Positions 10,648 through 36,056 of a stretch of DNA of 37,651 nt are shown here, piece after piece. The translations under genes and the position numbers were made by a program. The number at the start of each line of letters is the position of its first letter. Position 1 is the first letter of the stretch. Source of the DNA: an uncultured Desulfomonile sp. (GTDB lineage: Bacteria; Desulfobacterota; Desulfomonilia; Desulfomonilales; Desulfomonilaceae); contig CAITZA010000140.1 of NCBI GenBank assembly GCA_903896745.1, positions 1 to 37,651 on the forward strand, in the 5' to 3' direction. The notes beneath the pieces were generated by a model. It made no database searches. It saw only the letters and a program-made list of their open reading frames with translations, and was not told the origin of the DNA.

Positions 10648-11508
10648 TCAGGAATCGGACTGCTGTCTGGGAATGACAGGCGCTGCGTCATCAATCTGAA
10701 ATCCTGTGAACTGAAGCCTGTTGAATCTACACGAATCTATACATTTCCCACAGTTAACACATAACAGGTTGCCCGCTTCCCTGTATGGCGCCAGTCCCAT
10801 GGGGCAAGCCGATAAGCATGACCTTTCCTTACAGCACGGGGTGGTTTGGGGGCGGGATTTTGAAATGACTTTCATTGTAACGGATGTTCGAAAGAGAGAT
10901 ATGATAGAACCAGTGGGACACAATACTCTGCACCATATCTTGGGTAAGAAACTCAACTGAAGTACGAGAAGGATCACAACAAACCAAAACTCTAATGATA
11001 CGGCCCTTTCCTTGACAATCATCATGGCCTCTGCGCTCATGATTGCTGGAGCGTTTATGTAGTTGAGCACAGGGATTCCAACAGCTCCGGCAAGGGCAGT
11101 CCCACATATTAAAAAGGAAAAACGCGTCAAGTTGGCTGAAAACGCCTTTTCAATGGTTGCAGATGACTTCGGGGGCCTCCTGAAAAGAATCAGGCAAAGC
11201 TTGTTCCTTAACCAGTCAATGCCTTCGGATACAAAAAGATACGGACAAAGCCAGCCACACCAAAACCTGCCAAGTAGGATGGCCACGAGCAGCGGAAAGA
11301 TCGCAGCCGTCATAAGAGGTACGGTGATTTCTCCGGCCGCAAAGATGGCCTGCAGGATGACCGATGGGTCGGCCACACCCAGACCACCGAAGTTAATTGC
11401 ATAAAAAGTTCCAGTAATTACATAAATTTCAAAAATGTTCAGGACAGGAACCACAAACATCAAACCGAAAACAAGAAATTGTGTGGCCCTTCTGTAAGGT
11501 AGATACAT
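10648..11508 (-). CDS. napH: NapH-like membrane iron-sulfur quinol dehydrogenase component
   Basis: An integral membrane protein of about 286 residues. It has four or more hydrophobic segments, two CX3CP motifs (WCGWLCP and WCRVLCPTG) on the cytoplasmic side and two C-terminal [4Fe-4S] ferredoxin-type motifs (CKERSCLSACP and CVNCGKCIDSC). NapH with NapG oxidises quinol and passes electrons to periplasmic nitrate reductase. Although the frame opens with a TTG at 11517, the ATG at 11508 overlaps the napG stop as TAATG and has AAGGGAGAT upstream, so translation is probably coupled and starts there. It is the last gene of the long respiratory operon, next to napG and in the Desulfovibrio-type order. 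Confidence 0.87.
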   Translation of the reverse strand: MYLPYRRATQFLVFGLMFVVPVLNIFEIYVITGTFYAINFGGLGVADPSVILQAIFAAGEITVPLMTAAIFPLLVAILLGRFWCGWLCPYLFVSEGIDWLRNKLCLILFRRPPKSSATIEKAFSANLTRFSFLICGTALAGAVGIPVLNYINAPAIMSAEAMMIVKERAVSLEFWFVVILLVLQLSFLPKIWCRVLCPTGSIISLFRTSVTMKVISKSRPQTTPCCKERSCLSACPMGLAPYREAGNLLCVNCGKCIDSCRFNRLQFTGFQIDDAAPVIPRQQSDS

Positions 11509-12299
11509 TAATCCCAATCTCCCTTGATCCTGGGTTTCTCATACGGAAAGTCAAATTTTGGTTCCTGCCCACCGCTGTCAATCCTGTATTTCTGTTCGAG
11601 CAGACCCTCGCCGCTGAGAGGTTTCTGGGGTGAGGTTTCCCTGGACTGACTAATATCATAGTTAGATTTGGCCTTCTGAAAGTAAAACCCTGCCTCATCC
11701 ACGCGGCCCATTCCCGCTGGGATAACATTGATAGCCCTTCCAGGCCTTGTAGGGCACCGTTCAACGCAAATCCCACACCCAACACACCCATCCAGAATTA
11801 CGGGATACAGGTTGTCCTTTAAAGCAATGGCCCTGTCCTGTAACGGGCAAACATTGTAGCAGGTGTTGCATAACGCGCCTATTTTCTGAAGAGACTCTGT
11901 CGGAATGACATCATGCTCGAGGAAAAGGTGGCTGTAACAGATTGAAGGTTCAATCTTTGCTTTTCCCATTTTTACCTTGGGAGGTTCCTTGAGATTCCTG
12001 TCCAGAGCCCCTGTCGGACATAACCGGCAGCAGGCCATGCATAAATAACACGCTTTGGTTTCTGCAATTACATACGGCGTGCCTATCGTAGCGCTAAATC
12101 CGGCCCTCCTGATGGAATTGTAAGGGCAGACTTCCATGCAGCGGTTGCATCGTATGCACAAAGCCATAAACCTGACTTCGTCAACTGCGCCGGGAGGTCG
12201 TAACCGATTTACACGGTAATCGTTGATTATCGGGTTTTGTCTGTTGACAAAAATTCTCTTAAAAAAATCGAGGATTCCAGAACTCACTATTCTACTCAC
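11508..12299 (-). CDS. napG: NapG-like ferredoxin with four [4Fe-4S] sites
   Basis: A polyferredoxin of 263 residues. Cysteine groups lie at 48/51/54/58, 84/87/90-91/94, 144/147/151 (one ligand elsewhere, perhaps Cys121) and 172/175/178/182. The stretch RPPGAVDEVRFMALCIRC is a clear NapG signature. NapG relays electrons from the quinol-oxidising NapH towards the nitrate reductase. Unlike typical NapG it shows no twin-arginine signal: the N-terminus reads MSRIVSSGILDFFKRIF, an amphipathic rather than exported start, and a stop codon lies just upstream of the GTG at 12299. Either the N-terminus is cut short or this form stays cytoplasmic. The ribosome site is weak. It overlaps napH by one base. 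Confidence 0.85.
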   Translation of the reverse strand: MSRIVSSGILDFFKRIFVNRQNPIINDYRVNRLRPPGAVDEVRFMALCIRCNRCMEVCPYNSIRRAGFSATIGTPYVIAETKACYLCMACCRLCPTGALDRNLKEPPKVKMGKAKIEPSICYSHLFLEHDVIPTESLQKIGALCNTCYNVCPLQDRAIALKDNLYPVILDGCVGCGICVERCPTRPGRAINVIPAGMGRVDEAGFYFQKAKSNYDISQSRETSPQKPLSGEGLLEQKYRIDSGGQEPKFDFPYEKPRIKGDWD

Positions 12300-12359
12300 A
12301 TAATATCAAGAATAAGAACAAATCTTAAAGCAAGAGCTGAATCGATTCCATACCCCGGT

Positions 12360-12671
12360 TCAATCTCGTGAGAGTCCCCTCATTTGTTCGACTTCGTCTT
12401 CAAAATTGATGTAAACATGGCCTATGTCAATTATCTCCGGAACGGCCATTCTTAAATGTCTGCAGAGTTCATCGAGTTCATCCTGGTTCTGCGCTTCAAA
12501 ATTAACAATTAACTCCGATCCATTCTCAGAGCAAACCTGAAAAGTTATCTCAGGAAATTCACGGAGTCTTTCCAAGACGGTTTGAGAGTCACCGGGATTC
12601 ACAAATATGGCGCTACCAGTGATGATCAATGTTAATGCCCATAATAAACAAAAAGGGTCAGGAGCCCGCAA
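12360..12671 (-). CDS. napD: NapD-like maturation chaperone
   Basis: A small cytoplasmic protein of up to 103 residues. The core from about residue 17 (ITGSAIFVNPGDSQTVLERL) to residue 92 follows the NapD pattern of a beta-alpha-beta ferredoxin-like fold with a mid-protein acidic helix and a terminal GHVYINFEDE strand. NapD binds the twin-arginine signal of NapA to delay export until the molybdenum cofactor is inserted. Its position directly after napA, 35 bases downstream, supports the call. The first 14 residues from the TTG at 12671 look unlike NapD, and a second TTG at 12629 gives a more usual length, so the start is uncertain. No strong ribosome site marks either. Confidence 0.75.
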   Translation of the reverse strand: MRAPDPFCLLWALTLIITGSAIFVNPGDSQTVLERLREFPEITFQVCSENGSELIVNFEAQNQDELDELCRHLRMAVPEIIDIGHVYINFEDEVEQMRGLSRD

Positions 12672-12706
12672 AAAGCTGGCGAGCGTCCTAACCCGGGTAG
12701 GTTAAA

Positions 12707-15097
12707 TCAGACGGATACGGGAAACGTAGCGTTCACATCACTTATAATTGTCATGTCAGCCACGTCCTTGGGGTCTCCAACTCTTTCGAGCTTTACAGCG
12801 CAGATTTTGAACTCAGGCTGTTTGGAGCCGTCATCGAAAGCGTCGATTGTTACCCTGTTGATCATTCTGTCCCAATCCTGGTCAAACCACGGAACGAACA
12901 GGATTCCAGGTAGGGAATTCTTGACGACATGAGCCGGCATTATGTTGAATCCGCGGCGGCTCACGATTTTGACCATGTCGCCATTATTGATTCCGTAAGC
13001 CTCGGCGTCCTTTGGATTAATTTCCACGTACGCGTTGGGTTTGGACCTGGCGATTTCGGGCACCCTCATGGTCATTGTGCCGGTGTGCCACTGTTCAATT
13101 GTACGACCGGTTGTCAGGAAGAAAGGAAAGTCTTTGTCCGGAGGCTCTTCCGCTCCCTTGTAAGGCCTCAGAAACACATTAGCCTTACCTTCGTGCTGCT
13201 TATCGCCGTAAAAATATATCATCGCCGTTGGAGGCACTTTTACGATTTCGGGCATGTTCATTATGGGGTCATGCCCCCTGACGTAGCGTCTAGCGGTCCC
13301 TGGGCTCTTTTCGTTGGGGCATGGCCACTGCAGACCCTCATCCATATCAAGCAATCGTTGCCTTGTGATGCCGTACAGCGTGTGTTCGGTCAACCTGACG
13401 CATTCCCTGTAATCGTCCCAGGCCATTCCGTAAGCGACGTTTGGATCATCCATATTCCAGGGAATCAGTCTTTCAAGTCCCATTCTCTTTGCCAGTTGTG
13501 CGGCTATCCACAAATCAGGTTTGGCCTCCCCTGGGGGTTCAACACATTTCGGAGTTACCTGACTCCTGCGCTCAGAGCAACCATATACGCCACCCTTTTC
13601 GTAAATAAACGCAGCAGGCAATATGACATCGGCCAACTGAGTGGTTCTCGTGGGGAAAATGTCCAACACCACGAGGAATCCATCCTTCATGCCCTTAAAA
13701 AATTTCGGGGCGTTTGGCAAGGATTGAGCCGGATTAGTAGTGGAAACCAGCATTGCCTTCAGCGGTTTGGACTGATCATCCTCGGAGCCGAGTTTTGCAA
13801 ACATTTCCATGGTGTGGAAGCCGGGTTTGGGGTCAATCGAGCCGGCCGGTATCTTCCAGGATTTTTCGCAATCGGCTCTGGCCGCCGGGTCAGTAATTGC
13901 ACGGGTTCCCGGAAGTAACTGGCATAGAGACCCGGTCTCCCTGACCCCACCGCAAGCATTGGGCTGTCCTGTAATAGAGAAAGAATCAGCGCCTTCCTTG
14001 CATATATTACCGGAGATGAGATGGAGGTTGTGAATCAGGTTGTTGGCCCACACCCCTCGAGTCCTCTGATTAAGACCCATGGTCCATAAACTCATGCTAG
14101 GGCTATGAGCTCCGAACAAGCGTGCGGCTTCCCGTATATTGGCCGCCGGGCACCTGGTAATTTTCTCGACGGCCTCAGGTGTGAACTGCTCCAGAAAATC
14201 AGAATATGCCTTAAAATCAACAACCTGCGAGCCGGTATGGAATCTGCACAGGTTGTCAATAAAGAATTTGTCTGTCCATCCGTTCTTTATTAGCTCTCTG
14301 GCCATACAGTGAAACACGGCCAGATCGGTGCCTGGGTCGGCAGGAAGCCAGACATCCGCAATTCGGGCTGTAGGCGTCAGCCGAGGTTCACAGACAATTA
14401 TCTTGATGTTATCAGGATCTTTCATCTTTTGCCGGGCCACTCTTCTGAACAGAATCGGGTGGCACTCGGCAGTGTTGGAACCAACCAGGAAAAGAGTTCT
14501 CGCTTTTTCTATATCGGCATAAGATCCCGCCGGTTCATCCGTGCCGAAAGTGGTTATATATCCACCAACCGCTGAAGCCATACACAGTCTGGGGTTCCCT
14601 TCAACCATATTGGATTTGAAGCCACCCTTCCAAAGCTTGTTGAAAGTATAGCTTTCCTCGGTCATACATTGACCGGATCCATAATAGGCGACAGAATCCT
14701 TGCCGAACTTCTGGTGTAATTCCTTGAACTTGTTGGAAACCTTGTCAAGCGCTTCGTCCCAGCTCACTCGCTTGAACTTTCCATCATCACCTCGCACCAT
14801 AGGGTACTTCAGACGATCAGGGTGATACATGCTTGTGTATCCCTTGAAACCCTTGACGCAAAGAAAACCAAAATTGGTAACAGCCTTGGGATTGCCCCTG
14901 AGTCCTACAAGCTGACCATTTCTAACTCCGGCAAAGATGCCGCAGCCAGTGCCGCAGAATCTGCAAGTTCCCTTTATCCATTTGTCAACTTCTATATCCT
15001 CTTGAGCCGAAACCGGTTTGGCAAACGGTATGTTCAAAGCTGCAGCGGCGAAACCGGCAGCCGATAACTTGATCATTTCTCTTCTGGATATGTTCAT
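12707..15097 (-). CDS. napA: Periplasmic nitrate reductase catalytic subunit NapA
   Basis: A 796-residue molybdopterin enzyme. It has a twin-arginine signal (SRREMIKLSAAGFAAAA, 4-20), an N-terminal [4Fe-4S] site in CRFCGTGCGI with Cys45, Cys48, Cys52 and Cys80, the relay Lys82, and Cys172 in LCMASAV, the position of the NapA molybdenum-ligand cysteine. The segment TGQPNACGGVRE is also NapA-like. It would reduce nitrate to nitrite in the periplasm using two Mo-bis-MGD electrons. GGAGGAAGATTT precedes the ATG at 15097. The flanking napM, napD, napG and napH genes follow the Desulfovibrio order. NapB is absent, which suits monomeric NapA. The sequence diverges from textbook NapA, so another oxyanion is possible. 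Confidence 0.88.
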   Translation of the reverse strand: MNISRREMIKLSAAGFAAAALNIPFAKPVSAQEDIEVDKWIKGTCRFCGTGCGIFAGVRNGQLVGLRGNPKAVTNFGFLCVKGFKGYTSMYHPDRLKYPMVRGDDGKFKRVSWDEALDKVSNKFKELHQKFGKDSVAYYGSGQCMTEESYTFNKLWKGGFKSNMVEGNPRLCMASAVGGYITTFGTDEPAGSYADIEKARTLFLVGSNTAECHPILFRRVARQKMKDPDNIKIIVCEPRLTPTARIADVWLPADPGTDLAVFHCMARELIKNGWTDKFFIDNLCRFHTGSQVVDFKAYSDFLEQFTPEAVEKITRCPAANIREAARLFGAHSPSMSLWTMGLNQRTRGVWANNLIHNLHLISGNICKEGADSFSITGQPNACGGVRETGSLCQLLPGTRAITDPAARADCEKSWKIPAGSIDPKPGFHTMEMFAKLGSEDDQSKPLKAMLVSTTNPAQSLPNAPKFFKGMKDGFLVVLDIFPTRTTQLADVILPAAFIYEKGGVYGCSERRSQVTPKCVEPPGEAKPDLWIAAQLAKRMGLERLIPWNMDDPNVAYGMAWDDYRECVRLTEHTLYGITRQRLLDMDEGLQWPCPNEKSPGTARRYVRGHDPIMNMPEIVKVPPTAMIYFYGDKQHEGKANVFLRPYKGAEEPPDKDFPFFLTTGRTIEQWHTGTMTMRVPEIARSKPNAYVEINPKDAEAYGINNGDMVKIVSRRGFNIMPAHVVKNSLPGILFVPWFDQDWDRMINRVTIDAFDDGSKQPEFKICAVKLERVGDPKDVADMTIISDVNATFPVSV

Positions 15098-15133
15098 AAA
15101 TCTTCCTCCGAGGCTTCGTCAGAATTTGAAAAG

Positions 15134-15646
15134 TTAAAATCCAGGCACGTTAAACCGATCTGCGCGGCCAGGAGAGAATTTTTCGTACTGTTGAATCTTG
15201 TGAACGGTGAACCAATGGGATTTATGACAAAACGAACAGTTTGTGACAAGCGATGCCGGCGGCAGGTTATGCGCCTGCTCGGAATGACAACCGATGCAGA
15301 CAGACTTGTCCGGCCTGGCTCGATAGTTTAGAGCGTCACCGTGACATATTCCACATTTCACGTTGTTAATCCCGTGCTTCGAAGCCAGCCACTGATTATA
15401 GCTGGCTGGGGTCTCTTTTTTGTGACATTCCATGCAATCCTGCTTGCCAAACTGAACCCTATGGGCATCCGGTTTTTCACCAGGCGCCAGAGGGGGAGCT
15501 GTAAACTCCTTCCACTTGGGATCCAATCCGCCGGGTTTACCTGCAGTTGTTGAGGCGTTAGGAGCGACGGGCTCGGCAGCCTTCAAGGAAAAGGAAAGGC
15601 TAGCAATTAGCCCTGTTATGATCAAGAAGTAGACGGCGCGTTTCAT
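15134..15646 (-). CDS. napM: Tetrahaem c-type cytochrome, NapM-like
   Basis: A 170-residue exported cytochrome. A Sec signal peptide (MKRAVYFLIITGLIASLSFS, cleavage near AAE) is followed by a Pro-rich linker and four CXXCH haem sites: CMECH (71), CGICH (98), CIGCH (117) and CSFCH (137). In Desulfovibrio desulfuricans a tetrahaem NapM directly precedes napA and stands in for NapB as electron donor; the same place and haem count here make that role likely. An AGAGGA site lies 7 bases before the ATG. The gene ends 36 bases before napA. The family call rests on context and haem number rather than alignment. Confidence 0.8.
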   Translation of the reverse strand: MKRAVYFLIITGLIASLSFSLKAAEPVAPNASTTAGKPGGLDPKWKEFTAPPLAPGEKPDAHRVQFGKQDCMECHKKETPASYNQWLASKHGINNVKCGICHGDALNYRARPDKSVCIGCHSEQAHNLPPASLVTNCSFCHKSHWFTVHKIQQYEKFSPGRADRFNVPGF

Positions 15647-15706
15647 GTTCCGTTCCTCTCACCATTTTGTTTTATTCTATAAATTGCGTAAGGCCAGTAT
15701 TCTTAT

Positions 15707-16558
15707 CTACTTTATGTTGTTGCCGGAGCGAACGGCTTCCACCAGAGCTGGAGTCGCTGCGGCGCCAATGGCTACCAGAGCGTCGGCAGCCCTTCTTGAG
15801 GCTTCCTGATTGGGCTCTTTCAAAACCTTTATCAGGGGTAGCACAGCAGGCTTACCAATAAGAGACAATGCCCTGACCGCCTGGTCCGACGCCGGTCCCT
15901 GTTTTTTTAGTGATGCGACTAACGGTTCGACGGCAGGAGCTCCGATTCTCGCCAGCGCCTCAGACGCGGCGTTCGCAACCCTTGCATTGCCGCTATCAAT
16001 AGACTTGACTAAAATCGGAATGCTGTCTACGCCGAAACTTGCCAGGGCAGTCACCGCTGCATCCCTGGTTTTATTGCTCTCATCACCAAGCAGATTAGCG
16101 AGTTCTGTCGAAGACGCCTTGGCCGACGAACCAATGACCATTAATGCCAAGACAGCCGCCTCTCTTACGAGCGGGTCCTTGTCTTTCAGCGAGCCAACCA
16201 GCGAAGGTAACGCCACCTCAGCCTCCGCCCCAAATTCTGCTATCGCATTCACGGCGCCGAGACGAACAAATTCTGACTGATTTTTCAGAGCCGTAACCAG
16301 GGCCGGGAGAGCGTCCTTTGGAGATATCTTAAGACCTTTCAGTTCAGAAATCGCGTTGGACGCCACTGAGGGGTCAGGGCTGTTCAAATCCTTCAGCAGA
16401 TCGTAAACAGTCCGGCCTGCGGCGTTCTGCTTCGTATCGGCGGATATGGCCTCACTGATTCCACATAAAAATATCGATGAAACAACTATAAGGGTTGAAA
16501 ACATTCTCAACCACGATTTTGCCAACCTGACGAACTCAAAAACATCTGCCCTTGGCAT
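15707..16558 (-). CDS. Exported HEAT-repeat protein in the nap-hao operon
   Basis: A 283-residue protein with an N-terminal hydrophobic export segment (about 18-36, FSTLIVVSSIFLCGISEAIS) followed by about seven HEAT/PBS-lyase-type repeats from residue 50 to the end. Repeat units carry the A-x-x-A-L-x-x-I/F-G pattern, for example AVNAIAEFG, AAVLALMVIG, ALARIGAPAV and RALSLIGKPAV. Such superhelices act as binding scaffolds. Its place between the NrfD-like subunit and NapM, with the ATG one base after the nrfD stop and GAGAGGG upstream, implies a conserved partner role in assembling or docking periplasmic redox proteins (inference). No HEAT protein belongs to classical nap or nrf loci. It has no bilin-lyase context here. 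Confidence 0.82.
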   Translation of the reverse strand: MPRADVFEFVRLAKSWLRMFSTLIVVSSIFLCGISEAISADTKQNAAGRTVYDLLKDLNSPDPSVASNAISELKGLKISPKDALPALVTALKNQSEFVRLGAVNAIAEFGAEAEVALPSLVGSLKDKDPLVREAAVLALMVIGSSAKASSTELANLLGDESNKTRDAAVTALASFGVDSIPILVKSIDSGNARVANAASEALARIGAPAVEPLVASLKKQGPASDQAVRALSLIGKPAVLPLIKVLKEPNQEASRRAADALVAIGAAATPALVEAVRSGNNIK

Positions 16559-16559
16559 G

Positions 16560-17792
16560 TTAGGCCCTCTCAGAGGCTAAACCGGCTGCCTTAGAACTGT
16601 ACTTTGTGAACTCTCCGGTCTCAATAGGGAGTATAATTTTAAGGTTGATGGTAAGTATGAGCAGACCGATTGCCCAAATACCCAGCGATACCATGATCTC
16701 CAGGGTGGTTGGCGCGTATTCCCAAACTTCACCTAACGGGGCCGGAATAAAACCCGGTATGATCAGTCCCATCCCTTTTTCAATCCATATCCCGATGATG
16801 ATCAAAACACACCCGAGGTTTAGCGTCAAAAACCTCTTGCGTGTGAAAGGAACGAGGAAAATAAGGAATGCTACTACATTGAAGGCAAAAGCGGTCCAAA
16901 TCCATGGAACCAGCCTACCTTTACCATCCATTCCGAGATACAAATACTTAAGCGGGGACAAATGGTGGGTATCAGAGTAGAGTTCCTTGAAGAACTCGGC
17001 TCCGAGAAGGAACAGGTTGATCGCCATGGCGATGCAAATCATTTCGGCGATTTTGTGTAGCGCCTCATCCTTCACGTGAAATTTTGTGTAATGACGCACA
17101 ATCTGGAACAGGAGTATGATCAGCGCAGGCCCTGAACAAAATGCTGACGCCAGGAACCTTGGGGCCAGAATGGACGCATTCCAGAAAGGCCTGGCAGCCA
17201 AACCGTTGTATATGAAAGCCGTGACGGTATGGATGCTCACGGCCCACGGTATTGACAGAAGAATGAAAGGAAGCAGGAACCTGTAATTGACAGGCCTTTC
17301 ATTATAGGCCTTGTAGATAATATAACCGGGGATGAGGAGGTTCAGAACCAAATACCCGTTTAGAACCACGATATCCCAGCCGAGCAGGGACTTTGGAAGG
17401 TTAAGGATCCCAAGCCCGGGCAATAAATGCCAGATCCGATCCGGTCTGCCCAAGTCGGCTGTAACAAACATCATGCACATCAGCAAGGCGCTGATCGCAA
17501 GAATCTCGCCTACGATGACGATATCCTTGATTGGACCAAAATCATACAGATAGGCGGGAATGATCAGCAAGACGGCCGCTGCGGCAACTCCGACCAGAAA
17601 GGTAAAGTTGCCCAGGTAAAAGCCCCAAGAAACATAACTCGTCATGCCCGTAGCGATGAGGCCCACCTCCAGCTGCTTGATATAACTACTAATGCCGATG
17701 ACAGCCAGAACCAGCAGCAGGGTAACCCACGCATAGTACAGTGGAGGTCCTGTCAGTATCCTTTTAACGGCTTGGACTATGAAACTTTTCAT
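16560..17792 (-). CDS. NrfD/PsrC-type integral membrane quinol-interacting subunit
   Basis: A polytopic protein of about 410 residues with roughly ten transmembrane helices, a Pro-rich N-terminus (ILTGPPLYYAWVTLLL) and the NrfD-family segments GFYLGNFTFLVG and FVTADLGRPDRIWHLL. NrfD-type subunits bind menaquinol and pass electrons to a partner ferredoxin; the HybA-like gene 15 bases upstream is that partner. The open frame starts with a GTG at 17804, but GGTGAGGGCCAAG just before the ATG at 17792 supports the later start. Similar modules occur in the Qrc, alternative complex III, Nrf and polysulfide reductase systems. In this operon it probably feeds the octahaem cytochrome, although feeding NapA is also possible. 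Confidence 0.86.
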   Translation of the reverse strand: MKSFIVQAVKRILTGPPLYYAWVTLLLVLAVIGISSYIKQLEVGLIATGMTSYVSWGFYLGNFTFLVGVAAAAVLLIIPAYLYDFGPIKDIVIVGEILAISALLMCMMFVTADLGRPDRIWHLLPGLGILNLPKSLLGWDIVVLNGYLVLNLLIPGYIIYKAYNERPVNYRFLLPFILLSIPWAVSIHTVTAFIYNGLAARPFWNASILAPRFLASAFCSGPALIILLFQIVRHYTKFHVKDEALHKIAEMICIAMAINLFLLGAEFFKELYSDTHHLSPLKYLYLGMDGKGRLVPWIWTAFAFNVVAFLIFLVPFTRKRFLTLNLGCVLIIIGIWIEKGMGLIIPGFIPAPLGEVWEYAPTTLEIMVSLGIWAIGLLILTINLKIILPIETGEFTKYSSKAAGLASERA

Positions 17793-17807
17793 CTTGGCCC
17801 TCACCAG

Positions 17808-18770
17808 TTACGTTGCAAAGAAATAATAGAATTTGGGTTGGGTATTTAATTCAGATTTGAGACGGAACACCCTCTTGTTTCGAATTATTTTGCTAATTTC
17901 ACTATCGGGGTCGAGAAGATTTCCGAATTTTCGGGCCCCGACGGGACAGACTTCGACGCACGCAGGATATTTTCCAACTCTAACTCTCTGAATGCAAAAA
18001 GTACATTTTTCGACCACGTTTTTCATTCTTGGCCGATTACCCAGATAATGTGTCACGGGGTTAATTTTGTCTGCAGGGATAACTGGTTCCGCAAAGTTGA
18101 ACCAACGCCCCATGTAAGGGCAGGCGGCCATGCAGTAACGACATCCTATGCACCAGTTGTAATCGACAACCACGATTCCATCAGGCTCTGTCCAGGTCGC
18201 CCTGACAGGACAAACCTTGGTGCAGGGCGGGTTAGCGCAGTGCTGGCACTGAACGGGCATGTAATAGTATCCGTCCTGGGGAACTTCCTGGGGATCGTAG
18301 TAGATAGTGGAGTGTTCAAAATCCATATCACCGTCTTTAAACTGTAATACGCGTATGTACTGAATCTGCGGGTCTCTGGACTGATTGTTTTCCTCCACGC
18401 ACGCATAAACGCATCTACGACAGCCTATACACCTCTGAATATCAAGGGCATATCCAAAGAGTGAGTTATCAATCGGTCCCTCGGTCCCTACTACGAAGTC
18501 CTTGCCATATTTTTCCCGATATTCTTTTTTTAATCGCTCTACGGTTTGATCAATCTCTTCTTTGGTCATCCTCTGAAAATTATTTTGGACAAATTCCTGC
18601 CAGGAGCAGGAACTTACCGCCAGCATGCCAAGGACACTTGCGACTCCCGCCAGGAATGTCCTTCGATCAGGAAGCTCATTCTTTCCCTCAAGGTTCGATG
18701 AGGTTCCCTGATTGTCGTAAGGACGATCTCCCGACAATGAGTCTGGGTCAGATGATTTGTCATATCTCAT
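17808..18770 (-). CDS. HybA/NrfC-like ferredoxin subunit with four [4Fe-4S] sites and Tat signal
   Basis: A 320-residue periplasmic electron-transfer protein. It begins with an unusually long polar region, then a twin-arginine signal DRRTFLAGVASVLGMLAVSS whose end has a lipobox-like VSSC (Cys55), so it may be a Tat-exported lipoprotein. Four cysteine groups follow: CIGCRRCVYAC, CQHCANPPCTKVCP, CIGCRYCMAACP and CTFCIQRVRVGKYPACVEVC, the last two arranged as in DmsB/HybA proteins. It pairs with the adjacent NrfD-like subunit to take electrons from quinol and pass them to the cytochromes. AAGGG lies in the 11-base gap after the tetrahaem gene. Confidence 0.86.
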   Translation of the reverse strand: MRYDKSSDPDSLSGDRPYDNQGTSSNLEGKNELPDRRTFLAGVASVLGMLAVSSCSWQEFVQNNFQRMTKEEIDQTVERLKKEYREKYGKDFVVGTEGPIDNSLFGYALDIQRCIGCRRCVYACVEENNQSRDPQIQYIRVLQFKDGDMDFEHSTIYYDPQEVPQDGYYYMPVQCQHCANPPCTKVCPVRATWTEPDGIVVVDYNWCIGCRYCMAACPYMGRWFNFAEPVIPADKINPVTHYLGNRPRMKNVVEKCTFCIQRVRVGKYPACVEVCPVGARKFGNLLDPDSEISKIIRNKRVFRLKSELNTQPKFYYFFAT

Positions 18771-18781
18771 CGTAGCAACCC

Positions 18782-19378
18782 TTAATGCTTGGCTTGAACT
18801 TCAATTGGAGTCCAAGGTTTTTTGGGTGGGGGCATAGGCGCCATCGGTTTAAATTTGGGATTGTGAGGGTCGTGGCATGTTATGCACAAATAGTAATTCT
18901 TGGTTCCATTCCATGATCCTGTGCGTTTTCCATGTATCCCGTCGCGCCAATCCCTGTAAATGGTGCCGTGACATTTGCCGCATAGCAGATACGACTGTTC
19001 AAATTCGATATTCTTGCCGTCGCTTAATGGCAGCAAATAGTTTCGGTTGTCAGGATGATGGCAGTCCAGACACCAGAGCCTTATCCCACCATGATTTAAT
19101 CGTATATTATTATGAACTAAAAGGTCTTCCCGACGTTTGAAATTGACCGGAAAGTCTTTCTCCGGTCCGTGACACGCCCTGCAAGGCGTAATAGTCTGAG
19201 GCAAAGGCCTCAATGGCACGGGAAACTCCTGGTCAGAAGTCGGGGCCTGTATGGCCTTTAGAGCTTCGGCATCCTCCTGGATTTGCGCTATCGCCAGTCC
19301 AGGGCCGGTTTCAATACAGGCTCCAACAATTCCTATGACCAATGCCGTGACTAGAGGTATGAATATTTTAGGTTTCAT
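18782..19378 (-). CDS. Tetrahaem c-type cytochrome, probable lipoprotein
   Basis: A 198-residue exported cytochrome. The N-terminal hydrophobic segment ends in IVGAC (Cys21), a plausible lipobox. Four CXXCH sites lie at 66 (CRACH), 103 (CLDCH), 133 (CGKCH) and 165 (CITCH), and the C-terminus is Pro-rich (KPMAPMPPPKKPW). It is not a NapC/NrfH type since it lacks that family's spacing and a long membrane anchor. Its place between the octahaem gene and the HybA/NrfD pair suggests it is the electron bridge from the quinol module to the octahaem enzyme (inference). AAGGG lies 7 bases before the ATG, and the preceding gene ends 39 bases upstream. Confidence 0.85.
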   Translation of the reverse strand: MKPKIFIPLVTALVIGIVGACIETGPGLAIAQIQEDAEALKAIQAPTSDQEFPVPLRPLPQTITPCRACHGPEKDFPVNFKRREDLLVHNNIRLNHGGIRLWCLDCHHPDNRNYLLPLSDGKNIEFEQSYLLCGKCHGTIYRDWRDGIHGKRTGSWNGTKNYYLCITCHDPHNPKFKPMAPMPPPKKPWTPIEVQAKH

Positions 19379-19417
19379 GACTCAGCCCTTGTTTAACAAC
19401 CACAGGATGGTCGATGA

Positions 19418-20779
19418 TCATTTAACCTCTTTGCCGCCGTATCTCTGCTGATAATACGATTCAATTTTCTGCAGCTCTTCTTTGCTCATTCCATCCTTGT
19501 ACCATTTATGCAACGGATCCTTGTAAACCATTTCATTGAGGATGGGGGCCGCCTGCTCTTTTCCACCCATAAGTTTTTCAACTTCTGGGATGAAATTGTT
19601 GTAGAAATGTTTGGCGACTTCATACATGCCATGCCACCAGGCATAATCAGGCCCCATCATGGAGGCGCCGTGACGAGCGCGTCGGCCCTCATGATGCCAT
19701 AATTCGTAATAAATCCAGTCAAGCTTGTCATCAAAGTCGGCTTTGGTCAATTTCCCGAGATCTATGAGCTTTTGACGGACATTAGTGGCCGGGATTGCGA
19801 ACTTGTTGTTATAGAGATCGACCAGATCGTCGAACTGTGTGTAGAAACTGTTGACCATGAAGTCGCCATGGCACTGTTTGCAAACATCCTGCATTCGGTC
19901 TCGTCGCTCTTTCCACTGCGTGAGTTTTTTGGAAACCGCTGGTCGCAATGTCCATGAAATACGGGCGCCAACTTCATGAGTGGCCGGTTGGTTCGGAGTG
20001 GCGCTCATGTGACAGGTTGCGCATGTGGCTGTATCCTGATAATCAACCCCCACTATCCACTCACTTCTGTCCATATTCATTTTATCGCGGAACGCCTGAT
20101 AGAGTATGCCGTGTTTCGACTCCTGGTAAACTTCTATCTGCGGGTGATCTGGACCGAGATGGCATTTACCGCACGCGTCAGGTCTTCTGGCCTGCTCTAC
20201 GGAGAATCTGTGGCGAGTATGGCAGGCGGCGCAACTACCCTTGCTGCCATCAGGATTGATTCTTCCGATGCCGGTGTTCGGCCAGGTTGAAGGGTCAAGC
20301 TTACCGTTGGCAAGAACCTTTACGTTCGATCCATGGCATTGACGGCATCCCGTTGACACCGCAGCGGGGCCCCCAACAACTGAACCAAGGTAATTGTCCT
20401 GTGAATTCAGTATGTCAGCGCCCTTGGCATGATGCGACCCCTGTTGTTGATCGAACTGTTCCTTGTGACATTTTGAGCAATCTTTGGGAGAGACAATCGT
20501 GGCTATCCAGAAACCTCGATGGTCATAGCCGTCCGGATCGCCAGCTACCTTATCGGTTTTCTTTTCCGCTTTGTGGCAATCGTAGCAGTTGACTCCGGCC
20601 TGTCCCATGCGCCCCATACGCCAAAGCTTGTAAAGTCCTGGCGTCTTCAGTTCATGACACTTGATACACACCTGTCCTTCAGGCGAACCGTAAAGCTTGG
20701 GATCAACCTTTACGGCGGCGTTTGCCCACCAAGAACTCACAATCACCGCCAGTGCGACCATCAAAAAAATTCTTCGCAT
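19418..20779 (-). CDS. Octahaem cytochrome c of the hydroxylamine oxidoreductase (HAO) family
   Basis: A 453-residue periplasmic enzyme with a signal peptide (MRRIFLMVALAVIVSSWWANA) and exactly eight CXXCH sites, starting at residues 38, 65, 101, 145, 183, 203, 253 and 300. The C-terminal motif HHEGRRARHGASMMGPDYAW (362-381), followed by WHG, is a strong HAO-family signature. There is no CXXCK site, so it is not NrfA or an Otr-type enzyme. In organisms that lack ammonia oxidation, such HAO homologues are proposed to reduce nitrite or hydroxylamine to ammonium; with napA in the same operon, that direction is likely. Whether Tyr379 matches the cross-linking tyrosine of oxidative HAO cannot be settled without an alignment. 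It is the first gene of the operon, with AGGGAG 8 bases before the ATG. Confidence 0.86.
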   Translation of the reverse strand: MRRIFLMVALAVIVSSWWANAAVKVDPKLYGSPEGQVCIKCHELKTPGLYKLWRMGRMGQAGVNCYDCHKAEKKTDKVAGDPDGYDHRGFWIATIVSPKDCSKCHKEQFDQQQGSHHAKGADILNSQDNYLGSVVGGPAAVSTGCRQCHGSNVKVLANGKLDPSTWPNTGIGRINPDGSKGSCAACHTRHRFSVEQARRPDACGKCHLGPDHPQIEVYQESKHGILYQAFRDKMNMDRSEWIVGVDYQDTATCATCHMSATPNQPATHEVGARISWTLRPAVSKKLTQWKERRDRMQDVCKQCHGDFMVNSFYTQFDDLVDLYNNKFAIPATNVRQKLIDLGKLTKADFDDKLDWIYYELWHHEGRRARHGASMMGPDYAWWHGMYEVAKHFYNNFIPEVEKLMGGKEQAAPILNEMVYKDPLHKWYKDGMSKEELQKIESYYQQRYGGKEVK

Positions 20780-30926: not shown

Positions 30927-31355
30927 CTAAATCTTGTCATCCGGCTTTGAGTCCCTGATTGTCAGGAGCGCCTGCTGAAGCAGCTTTTTTGTTTCTATCA
31001 ATTGCTCACGGCACAGAAAAAGTTCATTTCCACTTTGTTGCATGGATTGGATCCGTCTCGCTTGGTTTGTTACATCCAGGAGTATGACGCATATTCCATT
31101 CGGTGTCACCGAAGATAAAACATTGGCATATAAGTTGTCGCCAAGGCTTACATACTCAAAAAATACCGTTTCGTTTTCCCTGAACATACCGTCCTGCACA
31201 AAAGCCAGACGATCTTCGACTGATTCTCCTGTCCCAAGCGTTCCCAGGCCGTAGTAAGTGAGATCGCCTCCTGACGAAATCAGGTTGTTATCCTTGTCCA
31301 GAAACAGATACGCTAACCTTCTTCTGTTAACAAGGTGGCTCAGGAGAATGTTCAC
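30927..31355 (-). CDS. Small PAS-like sensory protein with C-terminal coiled-coil
   Basis: 142 residues. The N-terminal 100 resemble a PAS-type fold: LAYLFLDKDNNLISSGGDL, a loop rich in Gly (LGTLGTGESV), then the strands ETVFFEYVSLGDNLYANVLS and GICVILLDVTNQ. Residues 105-135 form a helix or coiled-coil with leucine heptads (REQLIETKKLLQQALLTI). It is transcribed with the GTPase (17-base gap; GTG start at 31355, weak ribosome site), so it may be the regulator or effector of that GTPase in place of the Roadblock-type partners usual for MglA-like GTPases (inference). It converges with the OmpA-domain gene, leaving only 43 bases between stops. Confidence 0.68.
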   Translation of the reverse strand: MNILLSHLVNRRRLAYLFLDKDNNLISSGGDLTYYGLGTLGTGESVEDRLAFVQDGMFRENETVFFEYVSLGDNLYANVLSSVTPNGICVILLDVTNQARRIQSMQQSGNELFLCREQLIETKKLLQQALLTIRDSKPDDKI

Positions 31356-31372
31356 AACTGCAATAGGCAGGT

Positions 31373-31876
31373 CTATTTCTGGGCCTCCAGCATTTTTATG
31401 GCAAGCGCATTGAACGCTTCTTCAACTCCCTGACCGGTCCTGGCGCTTGTTCTCATGATTGACCAGCCCGTTTCAACGAGCTCAGAGAGTCTTTTTTCAT
31501 CAATTTCCCATGATTCGGACAGGTCGGCCTTGTTTATGAGTAACATGAACGGCAGATCCCCAACGGTCTGTTGCACTTTTTGCTGAAGTGTCATCGCCCT
31601 GTCAAGGGTCCATTCCCGCGTGCCGTCCGCAACAAGGAAGTATCCTGAACTCCCCCGAAGATAAGATACCTGGAGACTCTGAAACTCATCCTCACCCTGA
31701 AGGTCCCAAAGCATCAAATCTACGACCTCTTCTCCGATTCTTAAAGACTTCTTGTCTATTTTTACTCCAACCGTGGTGAGATATTTATCAGAAAAGAGAC
31801 TTTTTACAAAACGTTGAACCAGACTGGTCTTTCCTACCGCAAAAACGCCCACCATACAGATTTTCTTCTTGATCAT
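31373..31876 (-). CDS. Prokaryotic Ras/Rab-like small GTPase
   Basis: A 167-residue, single-domain GTPase. G1 GVFAVGKTS (10-18), a Rab-like G2 block TTVGVKI (34-40), G3 WDLQGED (57-63), G4 NKAD (115-118) and G5 TSA (143-145) are in order and spaced as in the Ras superfamily. The G3 box departs from the usual WDTAGQE: the catalytic Gln position holds Glu62, which predicts slow intrinsic hydrolysis or a need for a partner. There is no C-terminal lipidation motif. It belongs with the Rup-type bacterial Ras-like proteins of largely unknown role rather than MglA (inference from motifs). The ATG at 31876 has a weak ribosome site; the PAS-like gene follows in the same transcript. Confidence 0.82.
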   Translation of the reverse strand: MIKKKICMVGVFAVGKTSLVQRFVKSLFSDKYLTTVGVKIDKKSLRIGEEVVDLMLWDLQGEDEFQSLQVSYLRGSSGYFLVADGTREWTLDRAMTLQQKVQQTVGDLPFMLLINKADLSESWEIDEKRLSELVETGWSIMRTSARTGQGVEEAFNALAIKMLEAQK

Positions 31877-31988: not shown

Positions 31989-33278
31989 CTAGAACGGAGG
32001 CTTTCTCAGAATACTCTGTTCACGTCCGGGGCCTATCGAAACCAATGTCACAGGCGTTCCCGAGAGATGCTCGACTGTTTCTACAAAATCACGCGCATTC
32101 TTGGGAAGATCATCGAAAGACCGACATTCATCAAGTGGCTCCGACCAGCCCTTGACTTCCCTGTAATGGGGGATGACCCTCCCGAGATCCTCAATATTGG
32201 ACGGAATCCGATCCGTAATCTTTCCATCCAGTTCATAGGAGGTGGCTATTCTAATGGGAGAAATTCCGGTCAGAACATCCATCTTGGTCAGAGCGATTCC
32301 CGTCAATCCATTTAAACGTACGCTGTGATTAACCACTACCATGTCAAGCCAGCCGCATCGTCGCGGTCTACCTGTTGTTGCCCCGTATTCGTATCCCTTT
32401 GAACGTAATTCTTCCCCGAGTTCGTTATCCAGTTCGGTTGGAAAACCGCCCTGACCTACACGAGTCGTATAGGCCTTGACCACACCCCAAACCTTTTCTA
32501 TAGAACTCGGCCCCACTCCGGAACCACAACATGCGTTGCCTGCCACCACATTTGACGATGTGACAAATGGATAGGTTCCGTGATCAATGTCGAGAAGTGT
32601 CCCCTGGGCGCCCTCGAACAGCACATTGCTGCCAGATGAAATCTTGCTGTAAATAAGGGATGTCGTCTCGGTTATATGTGAAGAGAGCTGAGCTCCGAAG
32701 TTCAGGTATTCATCAACCACCTGATCAAGTTTTAGGGGAGGTTTGTTGAAGCGTTTTTCGATGAGGAAATTCTTTTCGTCGAGCGCGGCAGCGATCCTCT
32801 TTCGAAGCCAATCAGGACGAAGCAGATCGCCAGCGCGTATTCCGATGCGGGCAGCCTTATCTTCATAAGCCGGCCCGATTCCGCGACCTGTGGTGCCTAT
32901 TTTTGATGAGCCAAGCAACTCTTCCCGACCCAAATCAATCAGTTTGTGATAAGGCATTATTACTTGAGCTTTTTCCGAAATGAGAAGCTGGGAATCCTGC
33001 AGGAAATGGCCTCGGCTGCGTAACTCGTTCTTCTCCTCCAGGATGACCGCCGGATCCATTACGACCCCATTCGCAATAATATTGGTGATGCCGGGGTAAA
33101 GTATGCCCGAAGGAATTAAATGAACGATTATCTGTTCGCCGGCCACTTTAAGGGTGTGACCAGCATTGGCGCCGCCCTGAAATCGCACGACTACATCGGC
33201 TCTGCTGGTTAGCAAATCAACAATCTTGCCTTTTCCTTCATCGCCCCATTGAGTTCCTAATATGACCAGAGTGCTCAA
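31989..33278 (-). CDS. purA: Adenylosuccinate synthetase
   Basis: A 429-residue cytoplasmic enzyme that converts IMP, aspartate and GTP to adenylosuccinate, the first committed step to AMP. The N-terminal GTQWGDEGKGK (8-18) phosphate loop, RFQGGANAGHT, the GTTGRGIGPAYEDK block and the C-terminal VSIGPGREQ are complete, and length is normal. Translation probably begins at the TTG at 33278, preceded by AAAGGCG; no ATG fits. It follows serA by 83 bases on the same strand and ends at the terminator 31924-31965, so it is likely co-transcribed with the serine genes. Confidence 0.95.
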   Translation of the reverse strand: MSTLVILGTQWGDEGKGKIVDLLTSRADVVVRFQGGANAGHTLKVAGEQIIVHLIPSGILYPGITNIIANGVVMDPAVILEEKNELRSRGHFLQDSQLLISEKAQVIMPYHKLIDLGREELLGSSKIGTTGRGIGPAYEDKAARIGIRAGDLLRPDWLRKRIAAALDEKNFLIEKRFNKPPLKLDQVVDEYLNFGAQLSSHITETTSLIYSKISSGSNVLFEGAQGTLLDIDHGTYPFVTSSNVVAGNACCGSGVGPSSIEKVWGVVKAYTTRVGQGGFPTELDNELGEELRSKGYEYGATTGRPRRCGWLDMVVVNHSVRLNGLTGIALTKMDVLTGISPIRIATSYELDGKITDRIPSNIEDLGRVIPHYREVKGWSEPLDECRSFDDLPKNARDFVETVEHLSGTPVTLVSIGPGREQSILRKPPF

Positions 33279-33361: not shown

Positions 33362-34978
33362 CTATTCGTCAAGTATTACCTGGGTAACGCCTAGTATCCC
33401 CTCTATGGATCTTATGGAATTCAGAGTCTTCTCATCTGCGGGCGAGTCCAGGTTCAGAATTGACAGGGCCGTCCCACCAGCCTGATCCCTTGACAGATTC
33501 ATCTGGGCAATATTCGCGCCGCTTTTTGCCAATGCCCCCGACACGCCCGCTATCATTCCAGGAATGTCCCTGTTCCTGATAACCAGCATAGGGCCACTCG
33601 GCACAGCTTCCGTTAAAAACTCGCCAATCCCGATGATGCGCGGCTCGTTTCCAACCCGATGAATTAGCGCGCCCTCGATACTCGTTATCTGACCGCTCAC
33701 GGATGTGACCGTCATTTTTACGGTAGCCCCGAAATGTTGCTCGGATTTCCGGGTAGTCTGAAGGACCCTGATGCCTCGATCCCTCGCCGCCACAGGCGCA
33801 TTCACATAGTTTATTCGTGGTCCTTCAACTATTCTGAGCAAACCCCAGAGCCCGGCGTTGGCTATCGGCTCGACATCCACTCCGGAAATTTCGCCACCGA
33901 GCTGAACCTCGAATTTCGAAATACTTTCTGACACCAAACCGCCGAGGAACTGTCCAAGGCGTCTGGCCAAGTCCATATATGGGCCGACTACAACCATCTG
34001 TCCGGGGTCTATGTTTGGAACATTAACAGCATTGGTAAGAAGACCCTGTTCAAAATAGCCCATGATATTGTTAACCGCCGAGATGGCGAAATTTTCTTCC
34101 ACTTCACCCGTTTGAGAGCTAAGGTCCGGCGTGACCACGGTTGCGGGATGCTTGAGCAACGGTTGGGCCGTGTCCAGGTTTCGGTAGGTCACATCGAGCG
34201 CCGCACAACTCAACTGTCCGGTATCAAGCGCAGCAATCAACGCAGAGATATCCACAATGCCAAGATCTGATGTGTTGATGAAAATCGAGCCCCTTTTCAT
34301 GAGAGCGAAAGTTCTTGCGTTGAAAAGTCCCCGCGATCCCTCCGTCAAGGGAATATGAGCGGAAACGACATCGGAATTGGTTAGCATCTCATCGATCGTG
34401 ACCAGTTTTACACCGGCTGACTGGGCAGATTCGGGGCTAATGACCGCGTCGTAGCCTATTACATTCATTTTCAGGCCACGACCGGCTTTCCTGGCCACCA
34501 ATGCGCCAACCTGACCAAGTCCCAGTATTCCCAAAGTTTTGCCTGCGAGCTCAGCGCCCTGAAATTTCTTTTTCTCCCATTTACCTGCCTTCATCGAAGC
34601 GTCGGCAAATGGGATATGACGGCTGGAGGCCATCATCAACGCTATGGTATGTTCGGCGGTTGAAACAGCATTGACCCCGACGCTGGCGAGGACTGCCACA
34701 CCCTTGGTCGTCGCATAGGACACATCGATGTTTTCGAGGCCTGCGCCCGCCTTGCTGATTGCCTTAAGCCTATGGGCTCTATCCAGCGACGCCCTGGAGA
34801 CAATCGTTCTCGAACCGGTCAGCAGGCCATCATAACCATCGATGATCCCGATCAATTCCTCTTCAGTGAGGTATGGCCTGTAATCGATCGAAACACCCTT
34901 GCTCTTTTCGAGCAGGTTTAGACCACTGGCATGGATGACGTCCGACACCAGTATCTTGCAAACGTCATGATCAGCCAT
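33362..34978 (-). CDS. serA: D-3-phosphoglycerate dehydrogenase homologue with altered catalytic residues
   Basis: A 538-residue protein with the full type I SerA layout: substrate-binding and NAD domains (Rossmann GLGQVG, 153-158), intervening allosteric domain (about 320-455) and C-terminal ACT domain (about 465-538). The catalytic residues of the 2-hydroxyacid dehydrogenase family are missing. The Arg of the INxARGG motif is Asp238 (INTSDLGIVD), the Glu of DVFxxEP is Asn267 (DVTYRNL), and the His of TPHxG is Asp285 (TPDLSSQTGE). Genuine SerA activity is therefore doubtful despite the serC neighbour. The ATG at 34978 overlaps the serC stop by 8 bases with AGGA upstream; an earlier TTG at 34990 is less likely. 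Confidence 0.85.
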   Translation of the reverse strand: MADHDVCKILVSDVIHASGLNLLEKSKGVSIDYRPYLTEEELIGIIDGYDGLLTGSRTIVSRASLDRAHRLKAISKAGAGLENIDVSYATTKGVAVLASVGVNAVSTAEHTIALMMASSRHIPFADASMKAGKWEKKKFQGAELAGKTLGILGLGQVGALVARKAGRGLKMNVIGYDAVISPESAQSAGVKLVTIDEMLTNSDVVSAHIPLTEGSRGLFNARTFALMKRGSIFINTSDLGIVDISALIAALDTGQLSCAALDVTYRNLDTAQPLLKHPATVVTPDLSSQTGEVEENFAISAVNNIMGYFEQGLLTNAVNVPNIDPGQMVVVGPYMDLARRLGQFLGGLVSESISKFEVQLGGEISGVDVEPIANAGLWGLLRIVEGPRINYVNAPVAARDRGIRVLQTTRKSEQHFGATVKMTVTSVSGQITSIEGALIHRVGNEPRIIGIGEFLTEAVPSGPMLVIRNRDIPGMIAGVSGALAKSGANIAQMNLSRDQAGGTALSILNLDSPADEKTLNSIRSIEGILGVTQVILDE

Positions 34979-36056
34979 TTTTCCTAGCAAATTCTTTCAT
35001 GAATTCTACGAGCGAATTAACGGATTCCGGGCCAATTGCGTTATAAATCGAGGCCCTGCAACCACCAACCGACCTGTGCCCCTTTAAACCGCCAAGTGAA
35101 TTCTTGGTGGCTTCAGAGATGAATTTTTTCTCGAGGTCTTCACTCGGAAGCCTGAAAGTGACGTTCATGAGGGAACGGCTGTCTTTATCCGCTGTACCCC
35201 TGTAAAATCCACTAGCGTCCATGTAACCATAGAGAGCTTCGGCCTTTTGCTGGTTTCTTTTCTCCATGGAATCCAGTCCCCCTATCGTTTCCTCGATCCA
35301 CTTCAACACCAGACCCACCAGATATATGGCGATGCACGGCGGTGTATTGTAGAGCGAATTCTTTTCAGCATGCGTTGTGTAACGCATCATGGTGGGGATG
35401 TCCTTGGGGGTTCTATCCAGCATGTCCTCACGTATCATGACGACCGTTACACCTGCCGGGCCGAGGTTCTTCTGCGCACCGGCATAGACCAGTCCATGTG
35501 GATTGATGTCAAACGGTTTGCACAGTATGTCCGACGACATGTCCGAAACCAGGGGAACGTTTCCGGAAACTGGTGGAGCAGACCATTGGGTTCCTTTTAT
35601 CGTGTTGTTGGAAGTGTAGTGTAGATAGGCGGCATCCTGGGAGACATCGTAACCCTTCGGAATGTAACAGAAGTCCCTGTCCGCGCTGGAAGCTATCACC
35701 TTGTGAGGTTTTCCCAGAATTTCTATTTCCTTGATGGCTTTCGTCGCCCAAGTGCCGGTATTGATATATTCCGCAACCTTACCCGCAGGCAAAAGATTCA
35801 TCGGAACCATTGCAAACTGCGTGCTGGCTCCACCCTGTAAAAAAAGAACCCTAAAATTATCACCTGCTTTAAGTAGTCTCTTAAGCCTCGAAACCGCATC
35901 GTTAATAACCTCTTCAAAAAGGGGTGATCGATGGCTGATCTCGGCGATGGACATGCCCGATCCCTTGAAATCAAGGAATTCCACTTGAGCTTGTTCTAGG
36001 ACAGGCAACGGAAGGGCTGCGGGTCCAGGGTTAAAGTTATGTATTCTTGCGGACAT
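34971..36056 (-). CDS. serC: Phosphoserine aminotransferase
   Basis: A 361-residue PLP-dependent enzyme of serine (and possibly pyridoxine) synthesis that transaminates 3-phosphohydroxypyruvate with glutamate. It begins with NFNPGPAALP (8-17), has the QGGASTQF block (74-81), the PLP Schiff-base Lys196 in YAGAQKNLGPAG and the C-terminal GHRSVGGCRASIYNA substrate motif. Length and motifs are normal, so the enzyme looks active. GGAGGTG lies 8 bases before the ATG at 36056. It is the first gene of serC-serA-purA and overlaps serA. Confidence 0.93.
   Translation of the reverse strand: MSARIHNFNPGPAALPLPVLEQAQVEFLDFKGSGMSIAEISHRSPLFEEVINDAVSRLKRLLKAGDNFRVLFLQGGASTQFAMVPMNLLPAGKVAEYINTGTWATKAIKEIEILGKPHKVIASSADRDFCYIPKGYDVSQDAAYLHYTSNNTIKGTQWSAPPVSGNVPLVSDMSSDILCKPFDINPHGLVYAGAQKNLGPAGVTVVMIREDMLDRTPKDIPTMMRYTTHAEKNSLYNTPPCIAIYLVGLVLKWIEETIGGLDSMEKRNQQKAEALYGYMDASGFYRGTADKDSRSLMNVTFRLPSEDLEKKFISEATKNSLGGLKGHRSVGGCRASIYNAIGPESVNSLVEFMKEFARKNG

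Follow-up and report, generated by a model that had tools for sequence, protein, structure and literature searches.

Phosphoglycerate dehydrogenase (PGDH) is a textbook example of allosteric feedback, and work on it has concerned a homotetramer whose chains each combine catalysis with sensing. HisZ, a regulatory subunit, derives from a different enzyme, histidyl-tRNA synthetase. It is the separate regulatory subunit of the HisZ-HisG(S) ATP phosphoribosyltransferase in histidine synthesis (PMC10795190). Trypanosomatids are known to have dead paralogues that activate a functional partner, namely the AdoMetDC prozyme and a deoxyhypusine synthase subunit (PMC5201418, PMC3663545).

The window analysed here, a 37,651-nt stretch of Desulfomonile DNA, carries a SerA paralogue between serC and purA, named serA*. 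It shares with type I PGDH (SerA; TIGR01327) the domain architecture, the NAD motif, the ASB and ACT domains, the serine-ligand positions and the serC/purA neighbourhood. It differs in that the window protein lacks the catalytic Arg, Glu and His and the phosphate-binding Arg, and its relatives lack varying subsets of these. As with the trypanosomatid prozymes, a seemingly dead paralogue is kept beside an active one, and the hetero-oligomer found there is proposed here; serA*, however, is bacterial, belongs to another enzyme and has a predicted amino-acid-sensing ACT domain. Like HisZ in HisZ-HisG(S), it would serve the first enzyme of an amino-acid pathway in bacteria as a separate regulatory subunit, whereas HisZ does not come from its partner's own family. 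A search of the open-access literature, with subscription papers mostly outside its coverage, found no report of a PGDH pseudoenzyme or pseudo-subunit or of a Desulfomonile SerA. Subunits that are dead paralogues are a known kind, and the PGDH case appears new.

The serA* locus and its active site

Features of the locus are listed in Table 1. The serA* reading frame has zero internal stops, and its start overlaps the end of serC by 8 bases. Pfam matched 2-Hacid_dh, 2-Hacid_dh_C, PGDH_inter and ACT, the complete type I set of substrate-binding, NAD-binding, ASB (PGDH_inter) and ACT domains. An AlphaFold model has a mean pLDDT of 87 and its best structural match is M. tuberculosis PGDH (E 6e-51), so the fold looks intact. 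The protein scores 474.1 bits against the NCBIfam PGDH equivalog TIGR01327 (cutoff 454). Because serA* passes this cutoff, automatic annotation would call it SerA, likely in error, and a metabolic model using serA* alone would assume an activity that is probably absent.

Table 1. Positions of serA*, its neighbours and its notable residues in the window
Feature	Positions	Strand	Evidence
serA*, catalytically degenerate type I PGDH paralogue, 538 aa (ATG at 34978, stop at 33362)	33362..34978	(-)	Full-length; TIGR01327 above cutoff; R/E/H replaced by D238/N267/D285
serC (phosphoserine aminotransferase, 361 aa), upstream, same operon	34971..36056	(-)	Orthologues adjoin serA* wherever contig reaches
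purA (adenylosuccinate synthase), downstream neighbour	31989..33278	(-)	Adjacency to serA also in sister family and many other lineages
Inter-subunit arm, residues 120-147 (RHIPFADASMKAGKWEKKKFQGAELAGK), including Trp134 and Lys136	34538..34621	(-)	Conservation profile; disorder in single-chain model
ACT domain, residues 456-535; serine-ligand positions Asn469, Asp471, Asn489	33374..33613	(-)	Pfam; alignment; ligand positions from PMC6300728
Asp238 codon (Arg in active PGDH, binds substrate carboxylate)	34265..34267	(-)	Alignment; role from PMC6300728
Asn267 codon (Glu in active PGDH)	34178..34180	(-)	Alignment
Asp285 codon (His in active PGDH, proton acceptor)	34124..34126	(-)	Alignment; role from PMC6300728
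Gly55 codon (Arg in active PGDH, binds substrate phosphate)	34814..34816	(-)	R in 125/125 others, 7/16 serA*

Residues were aligned with M. tuberculosis and human PGDH and with 140 other SerAs. The Arg238, Glu267 and His285 sites are D/N/D in window serA* and R/E/H in 125/125 comparison SerAs outside its clade. Arg76 is replaced by Lys; of the phosphate-binding cations, Arg55 is Gly and the trans Lys/Arg136 is kept as Lys136. The sequence-only reading had described a SerA homologue free of stops and frameshifts that keeps the NAD fold, the allosteric domain and the ACT domain and lacks the Arg, Glu and His of the active site. The open frame, the Pfam matches and the alignment bear this out. 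That reading would have fallen if the catalytic residues were supplied from other positions. In the window protein no nearby residue takes their place, as it has no Glu in residues 262-275 and no His in 278-300. Glu266, one residue before the 267 site, is present in nine serA* relatives. His277 is invariant in the serA* clade and was rejected as a substitute His because 23 active enzymes have it together with the catalytic His.

R/E/H is invariant in the 125 other SerAs and at least one of the three is missing in all 16 full-length clade members, so on this alignment chance is excluded as the cause of the losses. The window protein is predicted, with high confidence, to be non-catalytic. With the substrate- and proton-handling residues gone, serA* would be incapable of the PGDH reaction itself.

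Two further features of the window were noted by eye. After purA, at 30927-31876, a small Ras-like GTPase ORF is followed by a small same-strand ORF, which could be a GTPase-regulator pair. Positions 10648-20779 hold ORFs resembling a molybdopterin oxidoreductase, ferredoxin-type subunits, a membrane subunit and several multihaem cytochromes, together suggestive of a respiratory complex.

Distribution, probable stepwise loss and selection

A class survey covered 42 genomes, of which 18 belong to the GTDB family of the window (Desulfomonile and kin), a family of sulfate reducers. serA* was found in 17/18 family genomes, as 16 full-length copies, all with open frames, and one C-terminal fragment at a contig start adjoining purA (G016). 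The 15 full-length relatives are 45-51% identical to window serA*; serC orthologues are 68-78% identical (85% for one short fragment). The order serC-serA*-purA is kept in 15/16 complete cases, and the contig of the remaining case stops short of serC; in G001 and G016 the purA side alone is visible. Canonical SerA of the sister family also adjoins purA, in 13/14 loci read (the contig ends first in the remaining one), so the location of serA* next to purA looks ancestral. The exception within the family is G013 (99% complete), which has no serA* and an active-type SerA with Ala469; no recognisable serA* remnant was found in its serC-purA gap of ~366 bases. A GTDB scan for wider spread of the clade returned, among the matches listed, family members and intact-triad sequences and nothing else. 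A sequencing or binning artefact, or an oddity of a single genome, was ruled out, as erosion is seen in 16 genomes from nine genera, including a 6.5-Mb two-contig assembly.

Among the 16 full-length serA*, Glu is missing in 15, His in 9 and Arg238 in 2; phosphate Arg55 is lost in nine. The R/E/H states are DND (window), RKH (three), RLD (three) and RVD (two), with RID, RVN, RGH, RSH, RTH, GVH and REQ once each, and the Glu site is filled by N, K, G, S, T, L, V or I. Mapped on the tree, the Glu site requires two changes when scored as Glu present or absent and ten when scored by letter, which points to drift at this site. His and Arg55 need two changes each, and Arg238 was lost twice independently. 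G017 keeps Glu and has Gln for His, so Glu was either lost more than once or regained in the clade. The three losses, earlier taken to be simultaneous, look stepwise, since relatives mostly lack Glu alone, some lack Glu and His, and Arg was lost separately in two lineages. Window serA* is the most eroded member, with an end branch of 0.91 vs 0.15 for its active paralogue. A quick tree places serA* near the sister family and the active copy near the f37 sequences, and one joint clade was not rejected (p-AU 0.144); both duplication within the family and acquisition of the active copy from elsewhere are compatible with this.

It is improbable that serA* has kept enzyme activity, altered or weak, towards 3-phosphoglycerate or a different 2-hydroxy acid. 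The kept NAD motif is consistent with that, as are the six members that retain Arg238 and His285 and lack Glu alone among the three, the Glu at 266 in nine members, and the Asp285 common to window serA* and 6/7 g3 members. However, the residues that replace Glu vary across the clade, subclades differ at the His and phosphate-Arg sites, and the window protein has lost all three catalytic residues and Arg55 with no neighbouring substitutes. A different reaction, which the sequence-only reading had offered as one role, is unlikely because the replacement residues vary from genome to genome and are not conserved as a common new reaction would lead one to expect.

Selection was measured in relatives, the window lineage having no close relative. 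For close pairs dN/dS is 0.04-0.17 for serA*, 0.02-0.03 for active SerA, 0.04-0.06 for serC and 0.02-0.05 for purA; the serA* pair giving 0.17 has a dS of just 0.07, which makes this value rough, and distant pairs are saturated. The low ratios show that serA* is under purifying selection in these relatives. Catalytic residues have thus been lost from a gene that is selected and stays next to serC, in line with the earlier suggestion of selection for another role within the serC operon. It is very improbable that serA* is a redundant copy under relaxed selection, drifting towards loss. Such drift would fit its absence from G013 and its rapid evolution, with dN of 0.45-0.49 in window pairs vs 0.15-0.21 for serC, purA and the other SerA. 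Set against it are the dN/dS values in relatives and the retention of serA* in all but one of the family genomes with every complete copy open. The window ACT domain is also as conserved as that of relatives (0.70 vs 0.70) while the catalytic half has diverged further (0.46 vs 0.58), a pattern that does not look like uniform decay.

A conserved arm, a putative serine site and a second SerA

Conservation in serA* was compared with two active reference groups, one of the active paralogue and one of SerA from the sister family. Relative to these, column identity is lower by 0.24 across the catalytic half and by 0.18 across the ASB domain, with a change of 0.00 for the ACT domain, and no other of 528 circular shifts gives so extreme a contrast between catalytic half and ACT domain. 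In a sliding profile, conservation matches that of active enzymes in two islands, at residues 120-147 and about 435-535. Among 16-residue stretches of serA*, conservation is highest at 128-143 (92%).

The first island is the inter-subunit arm, in which W134-E-K136 aligns with E. coli W139-N-K141. Lys136 aligns with E. coli Lys141', M. tuberculosis Arg132' and human Arg134', residues that reach the substrate from the neighbouring subunit; human Arg134' contacts the substrate phosphate (PMC6300728). According to a title cited in that paper (PMC6300728), removal of the W139 side chain yields a dimeric E. coli enzyme. Lys136 is kept in 16/16 serA* vs 7/16 for the protein's own-site Arg55, a contrast that rests on few events because Arg55 needs just the two changes on the tree. 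In the single-chain AlphaFold model residues 122-139 are disordered, as expected of an arm needing a partner. The arm, including Lys136, could simply serve a serA* homodimer.

In the ACT domain, positions 469/471/489 correspond to serine ligands H344/N346/N364 of E. coli and Y461/D463/N481 of M. tuberculosis (PMC6300728). They are N/D/N in 16/16 serA*, which places probable ligand residues at the equivalent positions of a serine-responsive ACT domain. The NAD motif GxGxxG is kept in 15/16.

A second, active SerA, which the sequence-only reading had said would be needed elsewhere, was found by genome search. In the window genome it is a full-length type I SerA at G000 C374:18992-20563, 37% identical to serA*, with R/E/H intact. 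Canonical second copies occur in 17 of 18 family genomes, always with R/E/H and always at a place other than that of serA*, to which they are unlinked; none was found in G003 (82% complete). Save for G003, serA* is thus accompanied by an active paralogue in the same genome. Position 469 is Ala or Gly in 17/17 active paralogues, compared with Asn in 14/14 sister-family and 89/94 other SerAs. The f37 sequences, nearest relatives of the active copy, have Thr at 469, so the active copy may have lost Asn469 before any pairing with serA*. Both ACT domains, that of serA* and that of the active SerA, carry paralogue-specific residues.

As a separate observation, the active SerA of the window genome (L002 1501-3081) has Arg at position 474 of the ACT loop, where Gly is nearly invariant (DKPR vs DxPG); it is alone in this among the 17 in its group.

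On balance it is somewhat probable that serA* serves as a subunit without catalysis of its own, one that senses serine, pairs with the active SerA and completes the latter's site in trans. In this mechanism serA*, unable to run the reaction itself, would pair with the active SerA encoded at the other locus; its arm would complete the partner's active site through Lys136; and its ACT domain would bind L-serine and pass feedback to the active subunit. We infer the pairing, the serine binding and the direction of control from residue conservation. The conserved ACT domain, the three ligand positions and the arm strengthen the serine-sensing regulatory subunit suggested by the sequence-only reading, which remains putative. 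G013 counts against pairing, since an active copy that has Ala469 and no serA* implies that the active copy can live without it. The paralogue-specific ACT residues could also mean insulation of the two proteins rather than pairing.

It is rather unlikely that serA* instead works on its own as a sensor or scaffold, forming a homodimer or homotetramer that would bind serine, NAD or both and act on a non-SerA target such as SerC. Its strict linkage to and overlap with serC, the kept ACT domain and GxGxxG motif, and an arm that would support a homodimer as well are compatible with this, and a human PHGDH-PSAT-PSP assembly ('serinosome') has been proposed (PMC11139964, PMC12318971). Yet Lys136, known to complete a neighbouring subunit's site, would lack an evident purpose if every chain of the oligomer were dead, and the serC-serA order is common for ordinary SerA too, so linkage need not mean binding.

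A more specific form of pairing with the active SerA is tentative: in Desulfomonile and kin, PGDH may be split into two paralogous subunits, the active one providing catalysis and missing a serine-ligand side chain, serA* providing the serine site and the trans Lys, with feedback needing the hetero-oligomer. Such a natural pair, one chain without catalysis and the other without part of the sensing site, would make the two functions separable for study. If this is true, a bacterial amino-acid pathway joins the short list of enzymes with dead-paralogue subunits, as a bacterial counterpart of the trypanosome prozymes.

Degenerate SerAs outside the family

Outside the family, 4/14 sampled two-SerA Desulfobacterota genomes have a second copy that lacks the carboxylate Arg and keeps Glu and His. 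These are L178 (G051), L184 (G087), L187 (G129) and L191 (G148), with Gly, Gly, His and Gln at the Arg site, and three also lack Arg55. The SerAs of L199, L211 and L212 all have R/E/H. Like serA*, the four are degenerate second SerAs in a genome with another SerA; unlike it, they keep Glu and His and have lost Arg238. In the stretches read, no copy of the four sits between serC and purA, and L191 has purA two genes on. Degenerate SerA paralogues may therefore have arisen repeatedly.

Two neighbourhoods of these copies were noted by eye. At L216 5103-6698 (G087) the degenerate SerA stands just after ORFs resembling formate-tetrahydrofolate ligase and FolD, which hints at a one-carbon context. 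At L218 5339-9587 (G148) the SerA with Gln at the carboxylate-Arg site is followed by a HisZ-like ORF and then purA.
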